Of a stretch of DNA of 40,318 nt, positions 1,182 through 40,017 are shown piece by piece. The translations under genes were made by a program, and so were the position numbers. The notes under the pieces were generated by a model. That model did not search any database and was not told the origin of the DNA. It saw nothing but the letters and a program-made list of their open reading frames with translations. Source of the DNA: a virus. How positions within the stretch are numbered: position 1 is the stretch's first letter; the number at the start of each line of letters is the position of its first letter. The DNA lies in IMG/VR virus record IMGVR_UViG_3300028800_000946, positions 1 through 40,318 of that record. One strand, 5' to 3'.

Positions 1182-3923
1182 CTATTCAGTTACGAGAAAA
1201 TATGTCTTTACTGAAGCTGGAACAAGCTGATTTACTATACTTTCAAGAGTTGACAATAATGGAAGTATAAATTTACCTGGATCAAAAACATTAATAATTA
1301 CACCAAAAGCTAATGTACTAGCATCCCAAAGAACAGGAACTGGCAATTGAACATCAGTATACTGTAATCCGTAAGCTATCCCTGTCTCAGTTGGACCAAA
1401 CCATTGATTTGTCAGAATTAAAGATGTATTTGAAACAATCTCCAATATAGTACCTAAATAAATACCATTTGAATCAGTAATTTCCTGACCAATAACTAAT
1501 TGAGATATAAATTGTGTACCTATAGTAAAAGAACCAGACGGAACAGTTACAGTACCAGCACTAGGGAATGTTATTGATGTTGCAGAGGGGCCATAACATA
1601 ATGCTCTACCATTAAGAACACTGGCAGTTGCGAATGTAATAGAAGTACCAGCAAGAATGTTACCATTCACTGTATTATTGGCCCCAAATGTGAATGTTGT
1701 ACCAGTTACGAAGTAAACATTATCTGCTGTGGCACCATTTTCCAATACAACTGTTGCATTGGCTGGTAAGGTGAGAGAAGATCCAAATGAAAAAATATAA
1801 GTACCTGCTCCATTCAATGTAAGTGGACCTGCAGACCATGTTCCTGCTGAAGAAGCATTATAATGTCCTGGTGTAGCTACATACCCACCAAGATCAGTAG
1901 ATGATATATTAGTCGTAATTGGAGTTGCCACTAATGTTGTTGCTGCATTAGTGGCATCAATATGAGCCTGAGCTGCTGCTGCGTCACCATTATGTAAAGT
2001 ACCACTAAATGTTCCTGGAGGAAATCCTGTAACACTACTGCCAGGAGAAACACCTAGATCTCCAGTTAAAAATGTACTACCTGTATTAGTAACTGCTGTC
2101 CCAGCTAAAACAGCATAAGTATTTGCTGTTAACAAAGGTGCTGGAAGAACAGTGGCATTTCCAGTTACAATATTGCTACCATTTGTAAAAGTAACTAATC
2201 CTGTTAAGAGTGTTGCACCCTGTAAAGAATCAAATATCTTAATAGGATTTCCAATATCAAAAGTAGCCTGAAGAGTATGTGTTGTTGGAGTATTCATTGT
2301 CCAATAACCCAATATTCCATTTGTTGTATAATCAGATGGTGGAACAATCAACCCAGAACCTGGAACTGAACTTGAAGGAACAGTTACTGTTCCTGCACTA
2401 GGGAATGTAACAGTAGTTCCAGAAGGACCGTATGTTAATGCACGTCCATTAAGTACGCTATTAGAAGCAAAGGTAATAGAAGTACCAGCTAAGATGTTAC
2501 CATTAATTGTATCATTGGCTCCAAACGTAAATGTTGTTCCAGTTACGAAGTAAACATTATCAGCTGTAGCCCCACCAGTTAAAACTACATTACAATTCGC
2601 ACCTACTGTAAGAGCAGTTCCAAACAAGAATACATAGGTTCCTGCTCCATTTAGAGTTAAATCACCAGTAGCTGTCCAAGTTCCAGCAGCTGTTGCTGAG
2701 TAAACACCTGGAGTTGCTACAAATCCATTTAAGTCAGTACTAGAGATATCTATACCTGGACCCATTGCCTGAAGAGTAGTTGCTGCAGCAGTGGCATCAA
2801 TATGAGCCTGATGAGCAGCTGCATCAGTGTGATGAAATGTACCAGTAAATGTTCCTGGAGGAAAACCAGTTACTGATGTTCCTGGATAAATACCCAAATC
2901 TCCATGAAGAACAGTGAATCCAGTGTTAGTTACGGCGGTATCACCTAAAACTGCAAATGTAGAAGCTGTTAGAAGGTAAGGATTTCCTAAGTCTGGTGTA
3001 ACATCTTCCACTACTAATGTTGAATCTATAAATGGTTGAGAAGTATAAAATACTGATTGCAAACCTGTTGGAGTAATGGGTGCATCTTGAATTGTAGTTA
3101 AAATAAAATTATTAATATCACGTACATTAGTAAACGTTGGAGGAACACCAGTAAATGCCTGAACTGCTAATATAACCGCTTCATTAGTACCACCAACTAA
3201 AGAAGCTAAAAATAAATTCATCAAAATCCAACGATAATCCACATACTGCATACTAAGAGGCTTAGGAAAATTAAACAATACCCCAAAATTTTGATATAGA
3301 TCCTCATCTACACATAAATCTACAAAATTATTTGTACGTGTAAGATAGGTTGTATAATAAACTTGATCTAATTGATTCCCGTACATATTCTCTACAAGCC
3401 ATAAATTAGTCTTGCGCTGGTTAACAGGTTTTAAAAGATCTCCTTTACCATACACATGATAATCTGGCAAAGAATTCATTAAAGCTTCAGCTGACAATTG
3501 TTGTACACTCATTGGAATAGTCCAAGTCAAAGTAGCTGACCAATCTGAGGTAAAAGCTCCTGTTACTGTTCTTACTCTAGCATACCATATTTGTACAACT
3601 TCATTTATACGTGCAGCTACTGGAACAGCAAATCCTTTCCTAACATTTCCATTTTGAAATGTAATAGCTGTAAGTTGTGTAAATGTAACTAAATTTGGTG
3701 AATCAAACAAGGGACTAGTATCTAACTGTAATTCAAAATCTGCTAATGTCAAAGCAGGAGTAATAAAAGCTGGATCAAATCCCCACCAAAAAACATAAAT
3801 TCCATCTTGACTTGTTCGATAAAAACGTAAGTCTAAAGGAATATTCTCATCTTCTGCAGATGTAGCTCCCTCATAGAAAGCACCACTATTATAAAAAGTT
3901 CCCGATCCGTAAAAAGTTACCAT
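1182..3923 (-). CDS. gpI-like baseplate protein carrying two DUF3494 (ice-binding-like) domains
   Basis: The 913-residue protein starts with an FN3-like beta domain (about 25-135). It continues with a region resembling P2 tail protein I (about 138-290), with the motif SLPDYHVYGKGDLLKP and a Trp/Tyr-rich helical stretch. Two DUF3494-type ice-binding-like domains follow at about 316-521 and 598-798. Each has the hallmarks FAVLGDTAVTNTG, SVTGFPPGTF, LNGAGTYVFLFG, NVYFVTGTTFTFGAN and NGRAL. The second copy appears inserted into a small beta domain, whose halves (TFTNGSNIVTGNAT and FISQLVIGQEITDSNG) lie on either side of it. gpI proteins usually run to about 200-250 residues, so most of this protein is added material. 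The gene follows W- and J-like genes, as in P2-type baseplate operons. The gpI assignment is inferred from position and fold pattern; the DUF3494 calls are strong. Confidence 0.8.
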   Translation of the reverse strand: MVTFYGSGTFYNSGAFYEGATSAEDENIPLDLRFYRTSQDGIYVFWWGFDPAFITPALTLADFELQLDTSPLFDSPNLVTFTQLTAITFQNGNVRKGFAVPVAARINEVVQIWYARVRTVTGAFTSDWSATLTWTIPMSVQQLSAEALMNSLPDYHVYGKGDLLKPVNQRKTNLWLVENMYGNQLDQVYYTTYLTRTNNFVDLCVDEDLYQNFGVLFNFPKPLSMQYVDYRWILMNLFLASLVGGTNEAVILAVQAFTGVPPTFTNVRDINNFILTTIQDAPITPTGLQSVFYTSQPFIDSTLVVEDVTPDLGNPYLLTASTFAVLGDTAVTNTGFTVLHGDLGIYPGTSVTGFPPGTFTGTFHHTDAAAHQAHIDATAAATTLQAMGPGIDISSTDLNGFVATPGVYSATAAGTWTATGDLTLNGAGTYVFLFGTALTVGANCNVVLTGGATADNVYFVTGTTFTFGANDTINGNILAGTSITFASNSVLNGRALTYGPSGTTVTFPSAGTVTVPSSSVPGSGLIVPPSDYTTNGILGYWTMNTPTTHTLQATFDIGNPIKIFDSLQGATLLTGLVTFTNGSNIVTGNATVLPAPLLTANTYAVLAGTAVTNTGSTFLTGDLGVSPGSSVTGFPPGTFSGTLHNGDAAAAQAHIDATNAATTLVATPITTNISSTDLGGYVATPGHYNASSAGTWSAGPLTLNGAGTYIFSFGSSLTLPANATVVLENGATADNVYFVTGTTFTFGANNTVNGNILAGTSITFATASVLNGRALCYGPSATSITFPSAGTVTVPSGSFTIGTQFISQLVIGQEITDSNGIYLGTILEIVSNTSLILTNQWFGPTETGIAYGLQYTDVQLPVPVLWDASTLAFGVIINVFDPGKFILPLLSTLESIVNQLVPASVKTYFLVTE
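2362..2985 (-). repeat. DUF3494 cassette copy, near-identical in blocks to 39297-39903
   Basis: This segment encodes the first ice-binding-like domain of the gpI-like protein. It contains a 113-bp block (2617-2729) that reads identically at 39545-39657, and a block of about 78 bp around 2827-2904 that matches about 39755-39832. Intervening stretches differ at scattered sites. Identity at third codon positions points to recent duplication or gene conversion. Confidence 0.85.
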
Positions 3924-3941
3924 TATAATAAATCCTTATTT

Positions 3942-5456
3942 TTATCCAATTATAGACCAAACGGAACCATTCCACCCGACCCATTGATGAATATCTGTAG
4001 CATAAATCATTAGCCCTTCTGCAGGACTACTAATAGAATTCATTTGCGTAGAAGTCATTCTTGGAGGAAGAAATCCTTTAGTTGTGGAGTCTAATTCCAA
4101 AATAGCACTTGCAACTGTTGAACTCGTGCCAACTCCAAGAACTCCAGCAACATAAACATTATTGGGAAAATTAAAATTAGCCGATATAGATGTTGTAATC
4201 ATTGCAGGTGTAATTACACCATTGGAAATAGTAGCAACTTCTATTCCTCCAGCACTAGGAGGAACAGTAATTGTATTATCATTTAATGTCACTGCCCCAG
4301 TTAAAGCAATAGCTCGACCTGTGAGGCTTACTCCTGTATTGATAGTAATACTAGTTGTAGCAATAAGTGTTCCTTGAAATGCTGTACTTGTTCCTAGTGT
4401 AGCAGAACTACCCATTAACCAATAAACATTGTTTGTACTTCCACCATTAATAATAATGATAGAAGAACTACTAGCTGTAGTAAGAGCACTACCAATCTGG
4501 AATACCCATTCAGCACTAGGATTACCCCCTGCATCTAATGTAAGTGTACCTGTTAACTGCGCTGTAGTAGAAAATTTATAAACTCCTGGAGCGAGAGTGG
4601 GAATAACTCCTCCCGTTCCTAAAACCATTCCTGATAAATCTGTTGTAAAAGGGAGAGCTGCTAAAGTTGTATAAGCTGAAGAAGCATCTGTTTGGGCTTG
4701 TGAGGCAGCTGCATTAGCAATATTCTCTGTGCCACTAAATGTTCCTGGAGGAAAACCAGTAACTGATGTTCCTGGATTTAAACCAAGATTACCTATAAGA
4801 ACACTACCTCCAGTATTTGTTACAGTAGATGCCCCTAGAACAGCATATGTAGCTGCTGTTAACAATGTAGGATTAGAGGAACTAGTAGTAACTTCACCCG
4901 TTAAAGCAGTTATTCCACCAGAAGATGAGGCTGCAGTAATTGTAATAACTTGTCCTACCTGAGACAGAGCAATGTTGCCACCAGAAACAAGTTGAACATT
5001 TCCAGTTATTTTTGCGTTAAAATCTGATTTTAATGATAAAACTGCTGCAGTAGGAGCTATTGACCAAACCTCTGTTGGTGCAGAAGGCCAATTATACGTA
5101 GTAGTTAATTGGGCAATAGTATTAAGAGGCTCTTGAAGCTCATTGATATCTTCAGCAGCAATTTCAGAACCTAACCCAGTGTAAGAAACAGATACAGAGG
5201 TTCCATCTAAAGCAGTTGCAAAACTAATAACTCCATTTACATAGTCAACTAAAAATTGTGTACCTGTTGGTATACCTCCTGGAATTTCAGTATAACCAGG
5301 AATAATAACAGCAGGATAAGGTCCTTGAGGAACTTCAACTAAACGAATTAATCCAGGCAAGTAGGTTGCTATGCCAACTATTCCAATTATATGATTCTCA
5401 GCAACAATGGATGCTGGAATAAGACGTTCATTTATTTTTTCGGTATATGGGATCAT
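3942..5456 (-). CDS. Tail fibre-like protein with an internal DUF3494 (ice-binding-like) domain
   Basis: This 504-residue protein lies between the J-like and gpI-like genes. Residues 1-185 form a beta-rich N-terminal region that probably attaches to the baseplate. A canonical DUF3494 domain spans about 197-402, with TYAVLGASTVTNTGG, LAPGVYKFSTTAQLTGTL, WVFQIGSALTTASSS, NVYWLMGSSATLG and a closing NTITVPP. The C-terminal 50 residues (from ELDSTTKGFLPPRMTS to WVGWNGSVW) are a fibre-end motif also seen at the end of the protein at 24379-25032. The domain seems to split a fibre repeat, between TALTGEVTTS and ATISNGVITPAMI. This copy and the sheath copy are the closest in the window to bacterial DUF3494 proteins. 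A host-binding or surface-adhesion role is inferred; ice binding is untested. Confidence 0.8.
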   Translation of the reverse strand: MIPYTEKINERLIPASIVAENHIIGIVGIATYLPGLIRLVEVPQGPYPAVIIPGYTEIPGGIPTGTQFLVDYVNGVISFATALDGTSVSVSYTGLGSEIAAEDINELQEPLNTIAQLTTTYNWPSAPTEVWSIAPTAAVLSLKSDFNAKITGNVQLVSGGNIALSQVGQVITITAASSSGGITALTGEVTTSSSNPTLLTAATYAVLGASTVTNTGGSVLIGNLGLNPGTSVTGFPPGTFSGTENIANAAASQAQTDASSAYTTLAALPFTTDLSGMVLGTGGVIPTLAPGVYKFSTTAQLTGTLTLDAGGNPSAEWVFQIGSALTTASSSSIIIINGGSTNNVYWLMGSSATLGTSTAFQGTLIATTSITINTGVSLTGRAIALTGAVTLNDNTITVPPSAGGIEVATISNGVITPAMITTSISANFNFPNNVYVAGVLGVGTSSTVASAILELDSTTKGFLPPRMTSTQMNSISSPAEGLMIYATDIHQWVGWNGSVWSIIG

Positions 5457-5468
5457 ATTTTTATCCTC

Positions 5469-7331
5469 TTATAATTCTACAGTAATAGTAAGACTATTAG
5501 TAACTGTGTAAGCCTCATTACCAACAGAAATTTGTTGCCCAGGTGGAATAGTAGTAGTTACATCACCTTCAATACTTTGAAGAATAAGGCTAGTTAAATC
5601 GACTTCTGATACTCCTGGTACATTCTGTGCAATAGAAACTAATTCACTCAAAACAACATTTGCCCCAAGGCCCAATGAATTTATATATGTCGAAAGTGCT
5701 GTTTGAACATTCGTAACTACAGTAGTTGGTACATAACCTGGAACTACTAAAATTCCAGCAGTAAAATTAATCAAAGCCTCAGTAGCTTCTACAACCAAAA
5801 TATCTGATCCTACAATATGATTAGAATTATTATCAAGAAGGGCTTGAAGAATTGGGATTAAACTATCGTATGTGTAAGTAATTGTAACAACTGTATTGTT
5901 ATCAGGAATAAACCCCCCAAAGGATGCTGGACCCACAACAAAACCAGCTACACTAGCAACTGCAACAGTATTAGAATCTATAATAGAGGAAATTAATGTA
6001 TTATTCGTTGATTGATTAATAGAATCATTCACATTCATACCTGTAGTAGTAGATACTGATAACTGATTAACTGAACTATCAGTTGCAACTGCCCCACCAC
6101 CAACCCAACCTAGTGTGTTATCAACAACTAAATGCGTACCATCTGTAATAGTTGTAATAGTTGTTGGAAAAGTACCTTGAATAATTGTATCACCAGTATG
6201 CATCCCAGAGGTTGAAGAAATAATTAAATGGGTACTATCTGTAACAGTTGTAACAATAAATCCAAGACCTACAGTTGTAATATTGAATAATGTCTTCACG
6301 GCAAACGTAATATAACTAGCAGCCTCAATGCTACCACCAAGTAAACTATTTGGATTTAACACAAAAGTATAATCTGTATTAGGAACAAACGTGTAAGGAT
6401 TACCACCTACAATACCAGTTACAGATCCAACTGATAAAGCTGGTTGATTAAGTAAAATATATTGCTGAGATCCAGTTGTAGAATATGTAAAAGTCTCTGT
6501 GACAGTTACAGGTATCTGACCTCTTATATAAACATTTACACTGCCACCATATTGATTCCTAGAAGGTGGGTTTGGATCATTTGGTCCTACAACAAGGGCT
6601 TGAATAACATTTGGATTAGTCTCCACAAGACTTTTAATTCCATTTGGAGTACCTACATTATTCCCCTCAAGTTTAATTTGTATACGCCCTGCAAATTGAA
6701 CATTAGATTCAACATTAGTTCCACCACTAGTAATAGCAGTATTTGTAACAGCATCAATCCCGATGCCAGGGCCAACAAGAGAAGTAATTGTATTTACACT
6801 AACATTACCTACTGTACCAATTGTCTGTGCTATAATTGTTGTGCTTTGCTCGTAAAAACCTGTAACTGGATTAAAATAACTTGGAGCAAGTGAAGGAATA
6901 AACGTTACAGTTGCTGTAGTAGCAAATGACACAGCTGGAGAAGCAGATGTAGATAAAGTAGAAACAGTAGTACCAGAAGGAACACTTACAATGGGACTAG
7001 ATGTTGTATAATTTCTAATACGAAATGTAACAATGCCAGTAGCCTGAGTGCCAGGAAGACGAGTCATCCCATAATTATTACCAATAGCATCAAGATCTGC
7101 CATAGATATGGTGGCAGCATTAGCAACAAAGGCTTGAACATTCTGAACATACTGAATTGCTGGATAAACTCCCGTATCTGTTGTACCGTTTTCTGGAGAA
7201 AGTTCATTAGCAACTGTTGAACAAACTACATCATTCACAACACTTCCAGTTTGAGTTGCAATGTCTGGACGAGAAGCTTGTAAAAATGAAAGCATGTTGG
7301 AGAGAATTTGACTAAATGTTGGAAGAGCCAT
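5469..7331 (-). CDS. Baseplate J-like wedge protein (gp6/gpJ family)
   Basis: The 620-residue protein has the N-terminal pattern of baseplate J proteins: an initial helix, the 'GSVVNDVVCSTVANEL' segment, and LDAIGNNYGMTRLPGTQATG at about 79-98. A beta region with VPSGTTVSTLS and a middle segment GGTNVESNVQFAGRI follow, a known J-family signature. The C-terminus (about 510-620) has the usual alpha/beta part with VLSELVSIAQNVPGVSEVDL. The family forms the wedge ring that joins tube, sheath and fibres. The protein is larger than P2 J (about 300 residues), partly because of an inserted stretch at about 362-465 holding two or three THLI-type repeats that recur in the sheath and in an FN3 protein. 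It lies directly downstream of the W-like gene, the classical W-J order. Confidence 0.9.
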   Translation of the reverse strand: MALPTFSQILSNMLSFLQASRPDIATQTGSVVNDVVCSTVANELSPENGTTDTGVYPAIQYVQNVQAFVANAATISMADLDAIGNNYGMTRLPGTQATGIVTFRIRNYTTSSPIVSVPSGTTVSTLSTSASPAVSFATTATVTFIPSLAPSYFNPVTGFYEQSTTIIAQTIGTVGNVSVNTITSLVGPGIGIDAVTNTAITSGGTNVESNVQFAGRIQIKLEGNNVGTPNGIKSLVETNPNVIQALVVGPNDPNPPSRNQYGGSVNVYIRGQIPVTVTETFTYSTTGSQQYILLNQPALSVGSVTGIVGGNPYTFVPNTDYTFVLNPNSLLGGSIEAASYITFAVKTLFNITTVGLGFIVTTVTDSTHLIISSTSGMHTGDTIIQGTFPTTITTITDGTHLVVDNTLGWVGGGAVATDSSVNQLSVSTTTGMNVNDSINQSTNNTLISSIIDSNTVAVASVAGFVVGPASFGGFIPDNNTVVTITYTYDSLIPILQALLDNNSNHIVGSDILVVEATEALINFTAGILVVPGYVPTTVVTNVQTALSTYINSLGLGANVVLSELVSIAQNVPGVSEVDLTSLILQSIEGDVTTTIPPGQQISVGNEAYTVTNSLTITVEL

Positions 7332-7831: not shown

Positions 7832-8314
7832 TTAGGAATTACAGATTTGATCTATAAGAGTCAAAAATGCATTAGCTGTATTAACGAAATTTTGTAATTG
7901 CTTAACTTGGCTCGAAACTGCATTTGCCAAATACGCACGTCTGTTATAAGTGTAAATAAGATTCTGAAGTCCTGCTAAGGCCTTAATTGTTGCACCACTT
8001 TCTGCTTGGGCAATAAATTGGCTAATTGTGGGACATGTTGCATAAGATTGCATTGGTCCAAGAACAACATTTAACTCTGCTTGAATTTTATTCTGTACTG
8101 CAGCAAGTGTATTAATTTCTAATTGAGCAAATTCATTCAAAAGATCAAGCCTAGCAATCTGTGCTCCTAATGTTGCAATCTCAAGATCAGCAGCAGCTAT
8201 CTGCGTCTGTAAAAAAGTCTTAAAAGTTGCTTTAAGTATAGGCGATTGACACAAAATTTGCCTAATAAAATTAATTACACAAATACTTAACGCTACTGGG
8301 GTAGATTGTGGCAT
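7832..8314 (-). CDS. Small helical baseplate-region protein of unknown function
   Basis: This 160-residue, mostly alpha-helical protein has a coiled-coil stretch (about 35-85, rich in Ala/Leu/Gln with regular hydrophobic spacing) and four cysteines. Its ATG overlaps the stop codon of the upstream GIY-YIG gene by one base (TAATG), which suggests translational coupling. I recognise no family. Lying between the spike and W-like genes, it may be a baseplate component or chaperone, but this is only contextual. Confidence 0.7.
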   Translation of the reverse strand: MPQSTPVALSICVINFIRQILCQSPILKATFKTFLQTQIAAADLEIATLGAQIARLDLLNEFAQLEINTLAAVQNKIQAELNVVLGPMQSYATCPTISQFIAQAESGATIKALAGLQNLIYTYNRRAYLANAVSSQVKQLQNFVNTANAFLTLIDQICNS

Positions 8315-9138
8315 TATAAATTACCTACACTTATTTTTTCTTTTCGTCGTTTTAATACCAAAATTCTTAGACATTCTATACATTGATAACCTTTTGTTCT
8401 ACCACAAATAAAGGTATCATGCCCCTGTTTACAAAATTGTTTTCGTTTTTTATGCGGTTTTCCTGTAACTGCTTTTACACGTTTCTCTGTTAAAGATTTT
8501 ACACGAGGATCTTCATTAGTTAACCCAGTATTCCAAGTTTTCCTGCCTCTTGCAGCATGATATGCAATATACCTTTGTTTTTTATACTTCATTACCACAA
8601 AAGTTTCTGCACATCCACAGGCACAACTACGAATTTCCTCAACAAGATCTTCAGGAAAATGCTTTCTTAATAAAAAAGCTAAAGTTCTTTTTTGTATATG
8701 TTCTGGGGTAAAGGGTGCTCTCTTAACACCTAAATGGGCTAATCGTTTCTTTTCGCAAGTTTCTTTTGATTGAGGACCATTTTTTAAACCTTTTCTTGGA
8801 TTAGGTTTTAAACGCTTTACACCACGGCAACTTTCTGCCTTTGGATTAATATTGTAACCCTTATCTCTTTCATAGCTTTTATAGTAATCCATCCAATATT
8901 GTTCTCTTTCAATAAGCTTATTTTTATCTTCTACCAATTCAAGTATTACGAATTCAAAGGCTTCTTCACCATATTTATTCCAGGCTCGTTGCAAATAAGA
9001 ATTAGCATGAATATTTTTCTTTAAATCTTTCTTATGGGAAGACCATCTATTTCCGATATCAGCAGCACTTCCAATATAAACTAAGCCTCTAATTAAATTA
9101 GTAATCTTATAAATCCCTGATTTTTTAAATGGTAACAT
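8314..9138 (-). CDS. Free-standing GIY-YIG homing endonuclease with zinc-binding C-terminus
   Basis: The 274-residue protein has an N-terminal GIY-YIG nuclease domain: GIY at 8-10, YIG at 21-23, a catalytic-type Arg at about 31 (GNRW), a conserved block NSYLQRAWNKYGEEAFEF and the Glu of REQYWMDYYKSYERDKGYN. Two cysteine clusters follow, CACGC and a C-terminal CKQGH...CIEC, probably zinc-binding DNA-recognition elements. It sits in a 2-bp gap between the spike gene and a small structural gene, with no clear Shine-Dalgarno site. The family makes site-specific breaks that copy the element into homologous sites. Nothing suggests an intron, since the flanking genes are intact. Confidence 0.9.
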   Translation of the reverse strand: MLPFKKSGIYKITNLIRGLVYIGSAADIGNRWSSHKKDLKKNIHANSYLQRAWNKYGEEAFEFVILELVEDKNKLIEREQYWMDYYKSYERDKGYNINPKAESCRGVKRLKPNPRKGLKNGPQSKETCEKKRLAHLGVKRAPFTPEHIQKRTLAFLLRKHFPEDLVEEIRSCACGCAETFVVMKYKKQRYIAYHAARGRKTWNTGLTNEDPRVKSLTEKRVKAVTGKPHKKRKQFCKQGHDTFICGRTKGYQCIECLRILVLKRRKEKISVGNL

Positions 9139-16402: not shown

Positions 16403-17026
16403 TTATAAAATCTTATTACTTTTTCTAATATTATCAGGTTCCCATAAAGGCTGTAAATTAACATAATTACACGCTTCATGAAACTGTTCTATGTTGGCAA
16501 GATCAAAACTATCAAGAGGAAGTATATGATCTATATTCCATTTATCTCTGCCCTTACCATAATTATTCCAAGACATACCTGGAAGAAATTTAGATTCAAG
16601 ATAATTTTTTAAAAACTCTGGTGTGCATCCAAGAGATTTTGTAGAAGAAGCGGGTTTTATAGTACCTCTAATTGCTGAGGAAACTCTACTTCTAATATTT
16701 TGCATCATTCTATGCTGTGGATCTTTATTCAGATTCCTAACAGAAGCATTTCTACGTTCTCTATTATTTTCACGCCATTGCTGTGTAAGTAAAATATGGT
16801 ATTCTTTATTCTCAGTTCGCCATTTTTTTGAATTTGCTAATGAACGTTCTTTGTTATCTCTATACCATTTTCTGCCCTGCTCATCATTATATTCTTTATG
16901 CTCTAATCGCCATTTGGCCTTGGCTTTATTATTGCAGTCTCTACAATGACCAGCTAAACCATCCTTTCGTGTTTTATCAGGACTAAAATTATCTTTAATT
17001 GATTTACACTTAGAACAGTATTTCAT
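16403..17026 (-). CDS. HNH homing endonuclease
   Basis: The 207-residue protein has an N-terminal zinc-ribbon-like segment (C4, C7, C30 and C33: CSKCK ... CRDC). A long basic helical region with repeated W/R/E-rich units follows. The C-terminal HNH-type core is WNIDHILPLDSF (about 165-176), then EACNYVNLQPLW and DNIRKSNK. It lies between sheath and tube, starts 3 bp after the sheath stop and has no clear ribosome site. Both neighbours are intact, so it is free-standing. Confidence 0.88.
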   Translation of the reverse strand: MKYCSKCKSIKDNFSPDKTRKDGLAGHCRDCNNKAKAKWRLEHKEYNDEQGRKWYRDNKERSLANSKKWRTENKEYHILLTQQWRENNRERRNASVRNLNKDPQHRMMQNIRSRVSSAIRGTIKPASSTKSLGCTPEFLKNYLESKFLPGMSWNNYGKGRDKWNIDHILPLDSFDLANIEQFHEACNYVNLQPLWEPDNIRKSNKIL

Positions 17027-17029
17027 TTG

Positions 17030-19534
17030 TTATACTAAATTAAGACCCAATGTAATTAAGATGGTATCTAATTCCAAGACAGGCTGTATACCAACTTGTA
17101 AGAGAATTTGAGTTGGCTGACTTGGATTTACTGTTGCTGTTGGAGGTACAAAAGATTCAATAATATTTGCTTGTTCAATGGTCTGCATAATAGCTCCTGA
17201 AACAGTTTCAACCTGTGAAGGAGTATTAGCAAGCAATTTTTGCCCAATAAAAATTGGATCTAAGAGTCCACGAAGCGTCTGAGCACAATAATCTGTAATT
17301 TCTGTAACCTGATAAAGTTGATTCAAGATTGTATCAAATGCTGTGGTTGTTCCAAATACAACTTTAGGAGAACCACTGATATTATCCACAAGAAGTACAC
17401 CACCATTGGAAAGAATTACTTTCTCTGCCTGGGCCAAAGTATTTGTAGTAGCAATACCTGACACAACTTCACGAGTAAGAGGTTGTGCAACATCATATGT
17501 TGGATTTGTTCTTAGAGCTGCTAAAGCTGCAGCCATCATCGTTCCATCTACTGTAGAAGCAGTTGTATTTGTACCAATAAACATTGAATACGTTACATTT
17601 GTCTGATTAACCACAACCACACGATTACTAGAAGCAGCAGTTGCATATCCAAGCATTGTTGCATCACTTGGATTTGAACCTGCTAAGAAACCAATGAAAG
17701 TAGTTCTTTCTAGACGATTAGTTGTACTAGAAGCTGTTACGACATGTGCCGTAAGATCTGGAATAAGCATTGCATTATCTGCAGCGTCTAAAGAAACAAC
17801 AATATTAATATTAGGAATGAAGAGCTTTTGAAGAGCTGCACGAACCTGTGAGGCATTAGATCCATCAGCAGGATTCATTTGCATCAAACAAACAATACTA
17901 GCTCCATTCTGTTGAGCTAATTGAGCAGCAATAGGAAGAGTCCAAGCCCCATTCATATTAGCAGTTTGGCTATCTCCACCACCTACAGTTCCCACTATAT
18001 TTGTAATAGTACTAAAATTCTGTAAGAAAAAGAATTGGGGTTGGAAAGAATTCTGCCCGTCACCCAATGCTTTAGTCCATTCATAGTTCACAAAGTAAGT
18101 AACTCCAAGTGCTGGACGAGAAGGTGTAGAAACTAAAGAACCAGCAACAAATCCAAGAATTGAATTTGCAGTTCCATTTTCAATTGCTATAGAAGAATTG
18201 GAAGTAGCTGTAGTAGCAATTACCAAAGAACCAGGAGCAGAAACCCCAGCCACAACGGTATCTGTAGTATTATTCAATGTTACAGCTGCTGTAAGAGCAA
18301 ATAAACGCCCAGAAATTGTACTGCCACCATCGTCAGTAACACTTGCTTGAGCAAGAATAGTTCCCTTAAAAGATGAACCCGTTCCTAGTGTAGCAGAACT
18401 TCCAACTTGCCAATAAACGTTACCTGCATTTCCGCTATTAATCATAACTACTGAAGAAGCAGAAGCGGTTGTCAAAGTAGAACCAATCTGGAATACCCAT
18501 TGTGCATCAGGATTACCCTGACCATCTAATGTAAGTGTACCAGTGAGTGCGGCTGAAGAAGAGAATTTATAAACACCTGCATTAAGAGTACGTCCACCTA
18601 AATCTCCTGTTAGAACAGTTGCACCTGTAAGATTTTGAAATGCTGTATAAGCAGTAGTAGCATCAGCCAATGCAGTAGCAGCTGTGGCATCACCATTATG
18701 TGTGACCCCAACAACTGTAGGAGAACCTGTAATAGAACCAGCAGGACTAAGAGCGACATTTCCTGTAAGAGTAGTGCTTCCCGTATTTGTAATTGTGCTG
18801 CTTGCAATTACTGCATAAGTAGAAGCAGAAGCAAGTGCAGGTACAGTAACTTCTGTAGCAGAGGCTACTGCAGCAATAGAATGAGCTGTAAAATATGCAT
18901 TCATCGTAGCGGCAACTTCAGCAGCTGTTACTTCAGTTGTAAAAGGAATTGTTTGAATTGGACCATTTGCAATACTTACTTGGAAATTTTTCCCACTAAG
19001 ACTTGCATAAGGATCAGATGCAGTGCCAGTAAGTTGTGTAGCTAAGGAAATCCAAGTGATATCTCCAATGGAGGTATCAACTGCCTGTCCTGCAACCCAA
19101 CCTGTTGTACTACCGACAATTAAATGAGTACCGTCAGTGACTGTGGTAATAGTTGTTGAAAATATTCCTGCATTATTAATTTGAGTAATCTTATCACCAG
19201 CTGTAAGACCTGCTGTAGACAAAACAATTAAATGCGTACCATCTGTAACAGAAGAAACTGTGAAAGAAAAACCAAGCATGTAATCAATACCATTTCTGTA
19301 GACGGCATAATTAGCGTCAGTCAATGTGGTACCATCTAATGCAACTGCTGGATGTAGGAGAGTATCTGTATTGGTTGATCCACGAGTAACAGTTTCACCT
19401 GTAACTAAATTGGTTAAGCGACCTGTGCCGACATAGGCAACTACACGAATACCTCCTGATACAGAAGCTAGAAGCTGCTGCTGCACAATGTCGAATACGC
19501 CTGGGAGCACACTTTGTCCATTAATTGAAGGCAT
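17030..19534 (-). CDS. Contractile tail sheath protein with inserted DUF3494 (ice-binding-like) domain
   Basis: The 834-residue protein has sheath signatures at both ends: PGVFDIVQQQLLASVSGGIR at the start and, near the end, ITDYCAQTLRGLLDPIFIGQ and the terminal beta strand. Between them are two THLIV-type repeats (about 91-152). A small alpha/beta domain follows (from SGKNFQVSIANG; the rest is SLVIATTATSNSSIAIENG) and is split by a DUF3494 domain at about 231-430. That domain has STYAVIASSTITNTGS, LNAGVYKFSSSAALTGTL, WVFQIGSTLTTASASS and NVYWQVGSSATLGTGSSF. The sheath core downstream (about 475-834) contains the conserved alpha/beta part. Many sheaths have surface insertions, but I know of none with this domain. 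The insert would face outward on each of the many subunits along the tail. Confidence 0.88.
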   Translation of the reverse strand: MPSINGQSVLPGVFDIVQQQLLASVSGGIRVVAYVGTGRLTNLVTGETVTRGSTNTDTLLHPAVALDGTTLTDANYAVYRNGIDYMLGFSFTVSSVTDGTHLIVLSTAGLTAGDKITQINNAGIFSTTITTVTDGTHLIVGSTTGWVAGQAVDTSIGDITWISLATQLTGTASDPYASLSGKNFQVSIANGPIQTIPFTTEVTAAEVAATMNAYFTAHSIAAVASATEVTVPALASASTYAVIASSTITNTGSTTLTGNVALSPAGSITGSPTVVGVTHNGDATAATALADATTAYTAFQNLTGATVLTGDLGGRTLNAGVYKFSSSAALTGTLTLDGQGNPDAQWVFQIGSTLTTASASSVVMINSGNAGNVYWQVGSSATLGTGSSFKGTILAQASVTDDGGSTISGRLFALTAAVTLNNTTDTVVAGVSAPGSLVIATTATSNSSIAIENGTANSILGFVAGSLVSTPSRPALGVTYFVNYEWTKALGDGQNSFQPQFFFLQNFSTITNIVGTVGGGDSQTANMNGAWTLPIAAQLAQQNGASIVCLMQMNPADGSNASQVRAALQKLFIPNINIVVSLDAADNAMLIPDLTAHVVTASSTTNRLERTTFIGFLAGSNPSDATMLGYATAASSNRVVVVNQTNVTYSMFIGTNTTASTVDGTMMAAALAALRTNPTYDVAQPLTREVVSGIATTNTLAQAEKVILSNGGVLLVDNISGSPKVVFGTTTAFDTILNQLYQVTEITDYCAQTLRGLLDPIFIGQKLLANTPSQVETVSGAIMQTIEQANIIESFVPPTATVNPSQPTQILLQVGIQPVLELDTILITLGLNLV

Positions 19535-19555: not shown

Positions 19556-20170
19556 TTATTTCTTATTTTTCTCTCTTATTACTTTCATAGCAGCTAAAGC
19601 TTTTTCCAATGCAGCTAATTTTCTCTTTCTTGTTTCAGGATTAGCAAATCGTTTACGCATCAATTCTCTATTAACAGGATTAGCCCACCATAATTTTTTA
19701 ATATTACTATTTATCTTATTATTTTTCTTTGTATGGTGCTTATTTTTAAACCCATTTTCAATCTGTCCGAGTCTATTTTTGCGTTTAAGTGTATCACTAA
19801 TTTTTTGTTTATTTTCTTCTGTTCTTTTTATACCAATAGGACTATCCGCAATTCTACAAGTATTATAACCTTTATCTCTTTCATAACTTTGGTAAAAATC
19901 TAGCCAATACTGTTCTCTTGCAATAACGTTTTCTTTAGTCGGATTCTCAATATATTCAATCACTTCAAACTGAAAAGCATCTTCACCATATTTATTAAAA
20001 GCATACTGCAACAATAATGAATCATGCTTCTCATGTCTAAGAGCATATAGATGATTATTCCATCTTTTCAATGTTCTTAAAGACGATCCAATATAAAGAA
20101 AGCTATTAAAAGTATTTGTTATCTTGTATATTGAAGGTTTATTCACTGCATTTAAAAGTTTCTTATTCAT
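19556..20170 (-). CDS. Free-standing GIY-YIG homing endonuclease
   Basis: The 204-residue protein has SIY in place of GIY (13-15), YIG at 26-28, the Arg-containing block RTLKRWNNH, AFNKYGEDAFQFEVIEY and REQYWLDFYQSYERDKGYN. A NUMOD3-like DNA-binding segment follows (KRTEENKQKISDTLKRKN), then a basic C-terminal tail. It is encoded 21 bp before the sheath gene. Its ribosome site AGGAG (20181-20177) overlaps the stem of an inverted repeat, which would limit translation. Ser for Gly in the first motif is a departure from the classic motif; activity is uncertain. Confidence 0.88.
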   Translation of the reverse strand: MNKKLLNAVNKPSIYKITNTFNSFLYIGSSLRTLKRWNNHLYALRHEKHDSLLLQYAFNKYGEDAFQFEVIEYIENPTKENVIAREQYWLDFYQSYERDKGYNTCRIADSPIGIKRTEENKQKISDTLKRKNRLGQIENGFKNKHHTKKNNKINSNIKKLWWANPVNRELMRKRFANPETRKRKLAALEKALAAMKVIREKNKK

Positions 20171-20337: not shown

Positions 20338-21507
20338 TTAGGAAACTGTAAGAGTTAAACTCTGTGTTCCAGTACCTGCTGCATTAATAGCTGACAATGT
20401 TATATAGTAGGTGCCAGAAGGGGTAGGAACACCACTTATAAGGCCATTTGAAGCATCTACAATTAACCCCGTTGGTAATCCTATGGCAGAATATGAAGTA
20501 GGTGAATTTGAAGCTGTTATAACGTAACTAAAAGGTGCAACACCAGTATAATCAGCCATTAAGGGGCTATTTATAATTGGTGGGGCAGACGAATTAACAG
20601 GTACAGTTATTCCAATACTTGCTACATTTGTAATAGGTAAGAGATTATCTGACCACTCACAATAGACTCTTAAAATCATATGATTCTCAATATAAATTCG
20701 TTGATTCTGAGCGATTCTAGTCTCAGTAGGTATGCTACGATCAATCATCTCGATACCGTTTATTGCAAGCTGAGTCCTAATTTCGGACATATTATTATAA
20801 ATAAGATCAATAATTTTATCCCTAGCCAAAGTATCATCCACTACATATAATTTTATATCAACATTAACTATAAGGCTTGAAAAAATTTCATCTGTTGTAA
20901 CAATATTAGCATTATTCTTTACTTGGAAACTATCTTCAGGTCCTAAATAACGAGTCTCACTAGCACTAGCCGTATTAACAATAAGACAAGGCCAATCCTG
21001 ATAATCTTGTGGAACGGCATCTGAAATAAAAATATTAGAATTATCAAAATCAAACAGTCCACCATTAATAAGAGTGGGTGAAGAGAATTTCAATACTTTA
21101 GAAGTAGTTACTAAGCCAATAGAATTTCCAGAAACACCTGTAAATGTAGCCGTTAAAGTAATTTTATTCGGAATTGAATTGGTTGTAGCCCCTATGAAAA
21201 GAGTACTACTATTAGCATTTATATAAGCAACTAAATTTGCTAAAGTAATTTGTTGTGTACTGCCAATTTGAACTGTTACACCAAAAGTAATAGTATATGA
21301 ACTAATACTATTTGTTATGGTAATTGTATCCCCATTGACTGGATTACCATAAAATTGAAGTGACGCTGAAGATGGAGATTCTATATAACTGTACTCAAAT
21401 GCAGGTGATACTGCTGTATTATTAGCAGGAGAAAAAATATCTTTTAATTCTCGAATAACACTATTTCTTACTCGTGTAAGAATAAGATAAGGATTTGAAT
21501 TAGCCAT
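20338..21507 (-). CDS. Putative tail terminator/completion protein with inserted beta domain and C-terminal Ig-like domain
   Basis: The 389-residue protein lies just upstream of the sheath module and downstream of a neck-like gene. The N-terminus (NPYLILTRVRNSVIRELKDIF) and the helical/beta core after residue 165 (DWPCLIVNTAS ... RDKIIDLIYNNMSEIR) fit a tail-terminator-like protein. Residues about 52-155 look like an inserted module (GDTITITNS ... ANLVAYINANSS ... SGNSIGLVTTS) common in phage structural proteins. The C-terminal 80 residues resemble a He_PIG Ig-like domain (IGLPTGLIVDASNGLISGVP). A similar domain ends the protein at 39088-40017. The terminator role is inferred from order. Confidence 0.65.
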   Translation of the reverse strand: MANSNPYLILTRVRNSVIRELKDIFSPANNTAVSPAFEYSYIESPSSASLQFYGNPVNGDTITITNSISSYTITFGVTVQIGSTQQITLANLVAYINANSSTLFIGATTNSIPNKITLTATFTGVSGNSIGLVTTSKVLKFSSPTLINGGLFDFDNSNIFISDAVPQDYQDWPCLIVNTASASETRYLGPEDSFQVKNNANIVTTDEIFSSLIVNVDIKLYVVDDTLARDKIIDLIYNNMSEIRTQLAINGIEMIDRSIPTETRIAQNQRIYIENHMILRVYCEWSDNLLPITNVASIGITVPVNSSAPPIINSPLMADYTGVAPFSYVITASNSPTSYSAIGLPTGLIVDASNGLISGVPTPSGTYYITLSAINAAGTGTQSLTLTVS

Positions 21508-23712: not shown

Positions 23713-24375
23713 TTAAGCTTTTTTAGATCTATTTTTTAATGATTTACTAATTTTACGTCTTGTACTCAAAGATCGTTTTTTACCATTCCAATATCCTATT
23801 GGATTTTTCAGATGTGCCAAGCTCAATTTTTTCCTAATACTCTGGGAAAGCGTTTTTCCCTTATTCCAAGGAATATAATAATTATGAGCACAAACGTCTG
23901 AACAATATTTTTTAATTTTCATAAAACAACGAAGTCCAGAAAATTCTTTACCACATCTACAAATTTTAGATACTATAAAATCTCCATTTAGCTTTTTAAA
24001 TTTAGACCATCTTTGGGATTGTACTTTAGACATTAATTTTTTAGTTTTATTTGACCTTTTCAAACCAAAGTTACTAGAAGCTTCTTTTCTAATATTATAT
24101 CCGTACTTTTTATTTATGCTGTCAAACCTATCCATCCAATATTGTTCTAATTTTTCTAATTTCTGTTTGGTTGGCTTCTCAATAAATGCAATTAAAATAA
24201 ATTCAAAAGCATCTTCACCATATTTATTCCAAGCATTTTGTAAATAAGAATTTGGATGCTTATTTAATTTTAAATATCTTTTATGACAATTCCAACGTAA
24301 TCTAACATCAGTAGCAGAACCTATATAGACTTTATTATTTAGTAAATTAATGATTGCATAAATTCCACTTACCAT
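23713..24375 (-). CDS. Free-standing GIY-YIG homing endonuclease with NUMOD3-like repeats
   Basis: The 220-residue protein has GIY at 4-6, YIG at 17-19, the Arg block RLRWNCHKRYL, the motif NSYLQNAWNKYGEDAFEF shared with the protein at 8314-9138, and the Glu of LEQYWMDRFDS. A cysteine pair region (CRCGKEFSGLRCFM ... YCSDVC) and NUMOD3-like helices (SIRKKLSLAHLKNP) follow. It lies between two fibre genes, 3 bp after the upstream stop, without a clear ribosome site. It is the closest relative in the window of the 8314-9138 enzyme. Confidence 0.9.
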   Translation of the reverse strand: MVSGIYAIINLLNNKVYIGSATDVRLRWNCHKRYLKLNKHPNSYLQNAWNKYGEDAFEFILIAFIEKPTKQKLEKLEQYWMDRFDSINKKYGYNIRKEASSNFGLKRSNKTKKLMSKVQSQRWSKFKKLNGDFIVSKICRCGKEFSGLRCFMKIKKYCSDVCAHNYYIPWNKGKTLSQSIRKKLSLAHLKNPIGYWNGKKRSLSTRRKISKSLKNRSKKA

Positions 24376-28532: not shown

Positions 28533-29885
28533 TTAAAATTTTATATAAGACACCCGCAAATAGTCCGTTGGAAGTGGAGCTTCAACTAGTGTAAACTGTT
28601 GAGGTATATTTAAAATAAAATCTACTCCAAGCATAAGTTTTACTCCATTTAAATAAACATCAAGTGTGCTAGATTTAAATGGATATGCAGTGGTAAATAG
28701 AGTATTTCCCTGGATAAGCAAATCAGTTGAAGCCATTCCTGAAGTAGAAGAAACAATTAAATGTGTAGAATCTGTAACAGAAGAAACAGTGAATAAAATA
28801 CTTGCTGTTATATCAGTCGCTGCTCCAGTTATCCATCCAGCTGTACTACCGACAATTAAATGAGTACCGTCAGTGACTGTGGTAATAGTAGTAGATACAC
28901 CATTAAGGACTCCACTTGGAGTTTCATTATTAATAATGTCATTAATTTCAACAGTTGTGGGAAAGGGTTGTTCAACAAATTGTGAGAATGACATATCCTG
29001 TACAGGAGACGTTAAATTTAATGGACTCTCATTATTTCCATTATCAAGAGCTGTAATTTTATAATACCAAGTAATACCAAATGTATAAGGCACATTATCT
29101 ACAAACGAGGTAACATTGGCTGGGGTAGTTCCAATTACTTGAAAACTACTATTATCAGTTGGTGAACTACTTCGATATACTCTATATAAAGCTATATTAG
29201 GCTCAATATTTGCAGCCCATTGAATAATAAAACCACGGTTAGCTAATAGATTAGTTGCTCTGATACCCTGAACAGGGAAAGGTCCTGCAGGAGTAGTAAC
29301 TGATCCAAGAGTAACAAAGATTGTTTCAACTGAAACAGAATTACGAGCCTGTACTTGACCATAATAAATTGTATTAGGAAGAAGATTTGTAAAAATATAG
29401 GAATTATCAGTAACCCACCCACTATTTATAACATTAAAAATAAAAGCAGGATCTGTGGAGAGTTGAACATAATATTGTGTATCATCATTATTGAAATTAG
29501 GTAGCCAATTAGCTGTAACTGTCGTGGAATAAACTCCGCTAAAAGGTTGAAATAAAGGTTGAGCAGCTAATGTTGTAAAAGAAAAAGGAGGACCAAAACC
29601 TGTACTATTAGATCCTAATGCATCAGTTGCAGCAGCTAAATTCACACTATACAAAGTATTGGGAACAAGAGAACTAGCCATGAGAGTGGTAGCATTAATC
29701 CAAACTGGAATATCACTAAAAGTTCCATCAGATTTAAGATATTTTATCTGAGTTGCTAAATTAATATTATATGAAAATTGAAAAGCATAATAGGTGGCAC
29801 CTGAATTTCCATCAGAACCTTTTGTGATTAAGGCAGATGAAGCGGTAACACTGGAAATGCTGGGAGTTGTAGGTAGAAATGGCAT
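28533..29885 (-). CDS. Fibronectin-III virion surface protein with THLIV modules
   Basis: The 450-residue protein contains three FN3-like domains (about 1-112, 113-200 and 201-310, with patterns such as LVPNTLYSVNLAAATDALG and LLPNTIYYGQVQARNSV). Two THLIV-type repeats follow at about 331-383, then the VYLNGVKLMLGVDFIL C-terminal beta domain. Its first domain is paralogous to the N-terminus of the protein at 31601-32416. A 48-bp block at 28842-28889 is identical to 19106-19153 in the sheath gene. It is likely a surface decoration or adhesin. Confidence 0.8.
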   Translation of the reverse strand: MPFLPTTPSISSVTASSALITKGSDGNSGATYYAFQFSYNINLATQIKYLKSDGTFSDIPVWINATTLMASSLVPNTLYSVNLAAATDALGSNSTGFGPPFSFTTLAAQPLFQPFSGVYSTTVTANWLPNFNNDDTQYYVQLSTDPAFIFNVINSGWVTDNSYIFTNLLPNTIYYGQVQARNSVSVETIFVTLGSVTTPAGPFPVQGIRATNLLANRGFIIQWAANIEPNIALYRVYRSSSPTDNSSFQVIGTTPANVTSFVDNVPYTFGITWYYKITALDNGNNESPLNLTSPVQDMSFSQFVEQPFPTTVEINDIINNETPSGVLNGVSTTITTVTDGTHLIVGSTAGWITGAATDITASILFTVSSVTDSTHLIVSSTSGMASTDLLIQGNTLFTTAYPFKSSTLDVYLNGVKLMLGVDFILNIPQQFTLVEAPLPTDYLRVSYIKF

Positions 29886-39087: not shown

Positions 39088-40017
39088 TTAGATTAATATC
39101 GTTAAGATCATTGTGCCACAACCTGCATCATTACAAGCTTGTAATGGAATACGAAATTCTCCAACACTGTTGGGGAAAATAGTCCCAGAAATTACTCCAG
39201 TACTATGATTAATAACCAAATCCCATGGCAAATACGTTGCATAGAATGCTGTAGGTGAATTTATAGCAGTAATAGTGTAGCTAAATGCAGATCCAGAGCT
39301 TGAAGGAACATTTACTATTCCTGCACTAGGGAATGTTACCGTTGTGCCCGAAGGACCATACGTTAATGCACGTCCATTAAGTACGCTATTAGAAGCAAAG
39401 GTAATAGAAGTACCAGCAAGAATATTACCATTTACAGTGTCATTGGCTCCAAACGTAAATGTTGTTCCAGTTACGAAGTAAACATTATCTGCTGTGGCAC
39501 CATTAGTTAATACGACATGGCAATTTGCACCCATCGTTAAGCTTGTTCCAAACAAGAATACATAGGTTCCTGCTCCATTTAGAGTTAAATCACCAGTAGC
39601 TGTCCAAGTTCCAGCAGCTGTTGCTGAGTAAACACCTGGAGTTGCTACAAATCCATTAAGATCTGTAGAACTAATGTCTGTTCCAGGTCCCATAAGTTTT
39701 AGAGCAGTGGCTGCAGCTGTTGCATCGGCATGAGCCTGAGCTGCTGCTGCGTCAGTGTGATGAAATGTACCAGTAAATGTTCCTGGAGGAAAACCAGTTA
39801 CTGATGTTCCTGGATAAATACCCAAATCTCCGTTAAGGACTGTATTTCCTGTATTCGTTACCGCAGTATCACCTAAAACTGCAAATGTAGAAGCTGTAGC
39901 AAGAACAGGATTATTAAGACTTACCAAAATTTCACTCGCACTATTAATAACTGGTGCTTTATAATCTGGTACTACTGATTCAATAATATTACCTTTTGTA
40001 ATGTAAATATTTGTCAT
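39088..40017 (-). CDS. DUF3494 (ice-binding-like) protein with C-terminal Ig-like domain
   Basis: The 309-residue protein has a short N-terminal part (1-38), a complete DUF3494 domain (about 39-240: ASTFAVLGDTAVTNTGN, SVTGFPPGTFTGTFHHTD, LNGAGTYVFLFGTSLTMGA, NVYFVTGTTFTFGAND) and a C-terminal He_PIG Ig-like domain (about 241-309: SYTITAINSPTAFYATYLPW). It has no signal peptide, which argues against secretion and for assembly into the virion. Its DUF3494 DNA is nearly identical in long blocks to copy one of the gpI-like gene. The protein is probably a surface decoration of tail or capsid. Whether it binds ice is unknown. Confidence 0.85.
   Translation of the reverse strand: MTNIYITKGNIIESVVPDYKAPVINSASEILVSLNNPVLATASTFAVLGDTAVTNTGNTVLNGDLGIYPGTSVTGFPPGTFTGTFHHTDAAAAQAHADATAAATALKLMGPGTDISSTDLNGFVATPGVYSATAAGTWTATGDLTLNGAGTYVFLFGTSLTMGANCHVVLTNGATADNVYFVTGTTFTFGANDTVNGNILAGTSITFASNSVLNGRALTYGPSGTTVTFPSAGIVNVPSSSGSAFSYTITAINSPTAFYATYLPWDLVINHSTGVISGTIFPNSVGEFRIPLQACNDAGCGTMILTILI
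39297..39903 (-). repeat. DUF3494 cassette copy, near-identical in blocks to 2362-2985
   Basis: This segment holds the DUF3494 part of the 309-residue gene. The block 39545-39657 equals 2617-2729 over 113 bp, and 39755-39832 equals about 2827-2904. The level of identity at the DNA level is far above that of the other copies. Confidence 0.85.

Follow-up and report, generated by a model that had tools for sequence, protein, structure and literature searches.

Why does the tail sheath gene of a phage carry a domain of the ice-binding family DUF3494, and what might this domain do on the virion? The gene lies in the window, i.e. the whole stretch of 40,318 nucleotides analyzed here, from a phage known from metagenomes only. 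An earlier note on this DNA had proposed an ice-binding-like domain at 18245-18845, nested in another inserted module between canonical sheath ends. The following features were delimited:

17030..19534, minus strand, tail sheath gene with DUF3494 insert (834 aa, ORF without internal stops)
19277..19534, minus strand, N-terminal sheath core, aa 1-86 (kept in all full-length relatives)
19061..19276, minus strand, first small insertion with TVTDGTHLIV repeats, aa 87-158 (in some relatives only)
18848..19060, minus strand, N-terminal half of the interrupted module, aa 159-229 (unbroken in L006, L013, L015 and L018)
18230..18847, minus strand, whole inserted segment, about aa 230-435 (versus insert-less sheaths; edges good to a few residues)
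18263..18811, minus strand, DUF3494 / Ice_binding domain (PF11999), aa 242-424 (Pfam)
18137..18229, minus strand, C-terminal half of the interrupted module, aa 436-466 (comparison with insert-less relatives)
17033..18136, minus strand, C-terminal sheath core, aa 467-834 (tblastn, PHROG matches of relatives)
5469..7331, minus strand, baseplate wedge J-like gene, contractile-tail context (Pfam 5.6e-18, phrog_6 3.5e-34)

The ORF encodes a contractile tail sheath protein. PF11999 was the single Pfam family found in it, and the window's own core gave no sheath match in the Pfam and PHROGs scans. The identity claimed in the earlier note was borne out by tblastn, by PHROG matches of homologues and by fold matches of an insert-less relative. 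All tblastn matches in phage records were annotated tail sheaths, bar one record without annotation; the annotated ones belong to Bacillus phage G, to Gordonia, Rhodococcus and Mycobacterium phages and to Tunturiibacter phage Tunturi_5. The PHROG 'tail sheath' family was matched by the homologues L063 (1.7e-43) and L040 (4.7e-34), whose C-terminal cores are 41% and about 55% identical to that of the window, respectively. The insert-less sheath L015 was modeled with low confidence (pLDDT 54); its best fold matches in the PDB were sheaths (best E 1.8e-10), namely those of phage 812, diffocin, prophages, pyocin, T4 and extracellular injection systems. Searching the PDB with a whole-sheath profile yielded the phi812 sheath alone (E 0.016), and a C-core-only profile found no PDB sheath. 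PF17482 stayed below the cut-off in L040 (E 0.012) and in Tunturi_5, and two scans for more distant sheaths returned the query loci only. A local blastp run without correction for composition was set aside; its matches overlapped and were of low complexity. The baseplate wedge gene sits downstream of the sheath gene, and terminase-like ORFs were present in three of the five relatives tested; together these indicate DNA-packaging phages and not injection systems. The genome scan with the sheath found neither a host nor a prophage. Two very large related sheaths without DUF3494 were also encountered, one of 1204 aa in Tunturi_5 (L066:2857-6471) and one ORF of about 1677 aa in LR745208 (L067:2023-7056).

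The DUF3494 domain in the sheath is complete, with PF11999 matched over profile positions 1-206 of 208 (E 2.6e-53, 181 bits versus a cut-off of 28.7). In L006, L013, L015 and L018 the module split by DUF3494 in the window stands uninterrupted. Both the proposed nesting and the proposed position were thereby confirmed, the latter agreeing with the segment 18230-18847 defined against insert-less relatives. This comparison, already envisaged in the earlier note, included C-terminal cores up to 91% identical to that of the window (L006, no DUF3494). Besides the window, the sheaths of L009, L010, L011, L012, L017, L007/L008, L020/L028, L021, L022/L031, L033, L034, L062 and L064 carry DUF3494; those of L006, L013/L014, L015/L016, L018, L040 and L063 do not. 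At the insertion site of L040 a different module related to phrog_28344 was found, and in L007 and L012 a phrog_28344-type module occurs together with DUF3494. A likeness between the interrupted module and the flagellin-hook IN motif found no support in a permissive Pfam scan. The small repeated module (TVTDGTHLIVxSTxG..AGxxxxT) was seen in the sheath (19061-19276), in the baseplate J ORF (5469-7331) and in ORF 28533-29885, with cross-matches of this type also in the relative G010; with it, these structural proteins have a mobile module besides DUF3494.

Could the ORF be a chimeric artifact of assembly that joins a phage sheath to a bacterial ice-binding protein? Nothing beyond the unusual combination speaks for it. 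The insert was found in at least 10 other contigs, and independent contigs from many other samples show the same architecture, for which reason a chimera was excluded for practical purposes. Also against it, the nearest bacterial and archaeal domains in the genome scan were at most 50% identical, and the frame is continuous. Where pairs allowed the computation, dN/dS was about 0.04-0.2, which indicates strong purifying selection on the domain-bearing frame.

The domain and the sheath around it have different histories. Between window and L028 the domain shows 93% protein and 85% DNA identity, against only 45% for the N-core and 54% for the C-core. Conversely, window and L007 are 87% identical in the C-core and 41% in the domain. 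The sheath domain of L007 falls, in the domain tree, into a second DUF3494 type, otherwise known from non-sheath proteins, i.e. two types occupy one sheath site, and the domains of the two sheath clades are intermixed. AU tests rejected monophyly of the sheath domains as a whole (p 7e-6), of the clade-A domains (p 1.8e-4) and of the clade-B domains (p 0.007). On the core tree, some branches of which are weak, gain or loss of the insert occurred at least five times, with L007/L015 and L012/L013 as plus/minus neighbors. The sheath site is a hot spot of DUF3494 gain, loss and swapping, and the domain was exchanged among these phages, probably by recombination in conserved flanks. GIY-YIG ORFs and an HNH-like ORF are dispersed in the tail operon (8314-9138, 19556-20170, 23713-24375, 16403-17026), two of them directly adjoining the sheath gene. 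The case for homing endonucleases as a cause of the insertion is weakened, since a GIY-YIG ORF also lies by the sheath gene of G010, which has no insert.

The sheath copy is not the only one: across four ORFs of the window, DUF3494 occurs five times. The further four are:

2433..2951, minus strand, first of two DUF3494 domains in ORF 1182-3923 (empty site in G010)
1596..2111, minus strand, second of two DUF3494 domains in ORF 1182-3923 (empty site in G010)
4266..4841, minus strand, DUF3494 domain in fibre-like ORF 3942-5456
39361..39879, minus strand, DUF3494 domain in the 309-aa ORF 39088-40017, followed by a He_PIG-like Ig stretch

From their place and weak similarity we infer that these other ORFs encode virion proteins. 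The Ig stretch of ORF 39088-40017 can be aligned with the He_PIG Ig domain encoded by ORF 20338-21507. The copies at 2433-2951 and 39361-39879, in different proteins, are 93% identical, which suggests copying within the genome or between close relatives. For comparison, G010 was used, the 151-kb record of L015, which is the sister of L007 on the core tree and collinear with the window's tail region. No DUF3494 was found anywhere in this record. One uninterrupted ORF in G010 is the homologue of ORF 1182-3923 and aligns with its aa 1-309, 523-583 and 802-887, i.e. both copies have clean empty sites, so that together with the sheath three such sites exist in G010. In the homologue of ORF 3942-5456 both ends match and the middle is unrelated. 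More generally, the examined records of this sheath family without a sheath DUF3494 (including those of 151 and 180 kb) have none elsewhere, and the four sheath-positive records above 100 kb have 2-5 copies each, a co-occurrence whose weight is limited by short fragments and shared ancestry. The earlier interpretation held for the sheath, the nesting, the complete and foldable domain and its site between the cores; it had missed the four further copies and the swapping hot spot. DUF3494 was also observed in non-sheath proteins of other viral contigs (L089, L090; ORFs of 2289 and 2730 aa, G024; 345 aa, G025), and among phage-like proteins it thus extends beyond this sheath family.

The AlphaFold model of the sheath domain was confident (pLDDT mostly 80-94) and superimposed on AnpIBP (7bwy/7bwx) with a TM-score of 0.93-0.94 and on EfcIBP (6eio) with 0.88 (rmsd 1.2-1.5). 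As modeled, the domain has the beta-solenoid fold of the solved DUF3494 members. The ice-binding B-face of AnpIBP is published (PMC7277481) and was mapped onto the sheath domain through the alignment. The predicted strands are aa 246-251, 326-331, 352-357, 379-384, 397-402 and 416-421 (STITNT, AAVTLN, ASVTDD, SSATLG, STLTTA and SSAALT). Of their outward residues 22 of 24 are T/S/A/G (P 8e-5) and 16 of 24 T/S (P 6e-5), with one Asp and no aromatic residue. Thr occupies column 4 in 146 of the 167 cases counted over 28 phage domains. By its sequence the domain carries a canonical Thr-rich ice-binding face. The B-face was not significantly more conserved than the rest (within types, the different tests gave p of about 0.05-0.18), and with both types pooled no excess was present; a higher conservation within types is at most suggestive. 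PF11999 also occurs in ice-free habitats (PMC12337378), so that for the phage domain ice binding is a prediction. Looking up the sample numbers in the literature yielded no habitat.

Taken as a whole, the best reading of these sequences is a swappable, tail-displayed module for ice binding or surface adhesion. The beta-solenoid is grafted into a loop of the accessory module between the N- and C-terminal cores. According to the survey PMC9230969, accessory sheath domains are located between these cores and away from the tube. The site between the sheath ends, as claimed earlier, is this known accessory-domain site, and because of the likeness outward display along the tail is likely, with one DUF3494 per subunit and six per ring on the outside; the total on a particle would follow from the length of its tail. 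The sheath core itself was predicted with low confidence in both AlphaFold runs (window, L015). Copies in other tail-region proteins would add to the display. The flat Thr/Ser/Ala face would most likely bind ice or the ice-water interface, and the particle could attach to ice crystals or survive among them; the benefit might be that particles stay close to hosts in freezing water films, or that freezing and thawing damages them less. We lean slightly toward such an ice-binding-type solenoid on the sheath and the other tail proteins. Against it stands that sister phages thrive without any DUF3494. Evenly balanced in our judgment is the broader proposal of a myophage lineage with ice-binding virions, in which multivalent DUF3494 would mediate ice attachment and the modules would be recombined as a kit.

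The solenoid might instead have been repurposed as a general surface adhesin for polysaccharides of host surface or matrix, or for soil particles, with swapping reflecting a change of hosts. The quick gain, loss and exchange at the site resemble those of host-range modules, other copies lie in tail-region proteins adjoining the baseplate, and adhesion is a published hypothesis for accessory, Ig-like sheath domains (PMC9230969). However, the Thr/Ser/Ala face is near-constant in composition across two domain types, unlike a face that diversifies with receptors, and the literature search found no glycan-binding precedent for DUF3494, so that we consider an adhesin rather unlikely. Cryoprotection of the virion only, against recrystallization that shears tails and without any role in attachment or placement, draws on the same fold and face evidence as ice attachment; copies in several structural proteins would then shield the whole tail. 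A copy on every sheath subunit would be a costly means to this end, and insert-less sisters exist; we regard this as unlikely.

That the domain is only carried along, as a tolerated and mobile passenger in permissive loops of structural proteins without a selected binding role, would agree with the many gains and losses, with several unrelated carriers and sites and with homing endonucleases in the same operon. An endonuclease gene is, however, also found beside the sheath gene of an insert-less relative, and the strong purifying selection, the preserved special face and the repeated use in large structural proteins make a mere passenger very improbable.

How does this putative ice-binding, tail-displayed module compare to known systems? 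Multi-domain (type 3) sheaths, such as T4 gp18, phi812 and those of large-genome phages, have an N- plus C-terminal core that is interrupted as here; their extras, for which a role in adhesion was proposed, are mostly Ig-like and point away from the tube, and Ig-like and helical domains are the ones named in the excerpts (PMC9230969). In the phages studied here, in contrast, the extra domain is a beta-solenoid of the DUF3494 family that sits within another module; some close relatives have it and others lack it, and divergent sheaths have exchanged it. AnpIBP (7BWX), EfcIBP (6EIO) and SfIBP_1 (6BG8) share family, fold and the Thr/Ser/Ala-rich B-face with the sheath domain; they are cellular proteins with measured activity, whereas the phage domain is built into a sheath and its activity is a prediction. 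Virus-encoded DUF3494 is known from PF11999 genes of Arctic viromes, interpreted as auxiliary metabolic genes for host cryoprotection (PMC11515562), and from Hyperionvirus, a giant virus (BFVD); unlike in these, the domain is found here inside virion structural proteins. In Marinomonas primoryensis MpAFP, an ice-binding domain held off the surface was proposed to attach its bearer to ice (PMC3492233, PMC4083281). MpAFP is a long bacterial repeat protein, the phage tail would carry many short copies, and the likeness concerns the working principle only, not membership.

Using both DUF3494 types of the window as tblastn queries, no match was found in 50,697 phage records; the same query matched 38 plasmid records, indicating that the search was sensitive enough. 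Strong matches in BFVD were Hyperionvirus proteins only. Synechococcus phage S-SKS1, named as a homologue carrier in the Arctic virome paper (PMC11515562), gave no PF11999 match. In the open-access literature, subscription papers being outside the scope, no paper contained both 'ice-binding' and 'tail sheath'. An earlier report of DUF3494 on a phage tail sheath was not found; accessory sheath domains as such are already known.

To our knowledge, no virion is known so far to bind ice, and the virions of these phages would be the first if the proposal of an ice-binding lineage were true. Natural plus/minus pairs (L007/L008 versus L015) make the question directly testable. The domains appear from their sequences to be ready-made ice-binding-type modules tolerated by a large moving assembly. 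If the domain binds ice, a contractile tail has been turned into a multivalent ice-attachment surface, ice joins the targets of phage accessory domains, and the finding bears on viral persistence, movement and host encounter in freezing environments.
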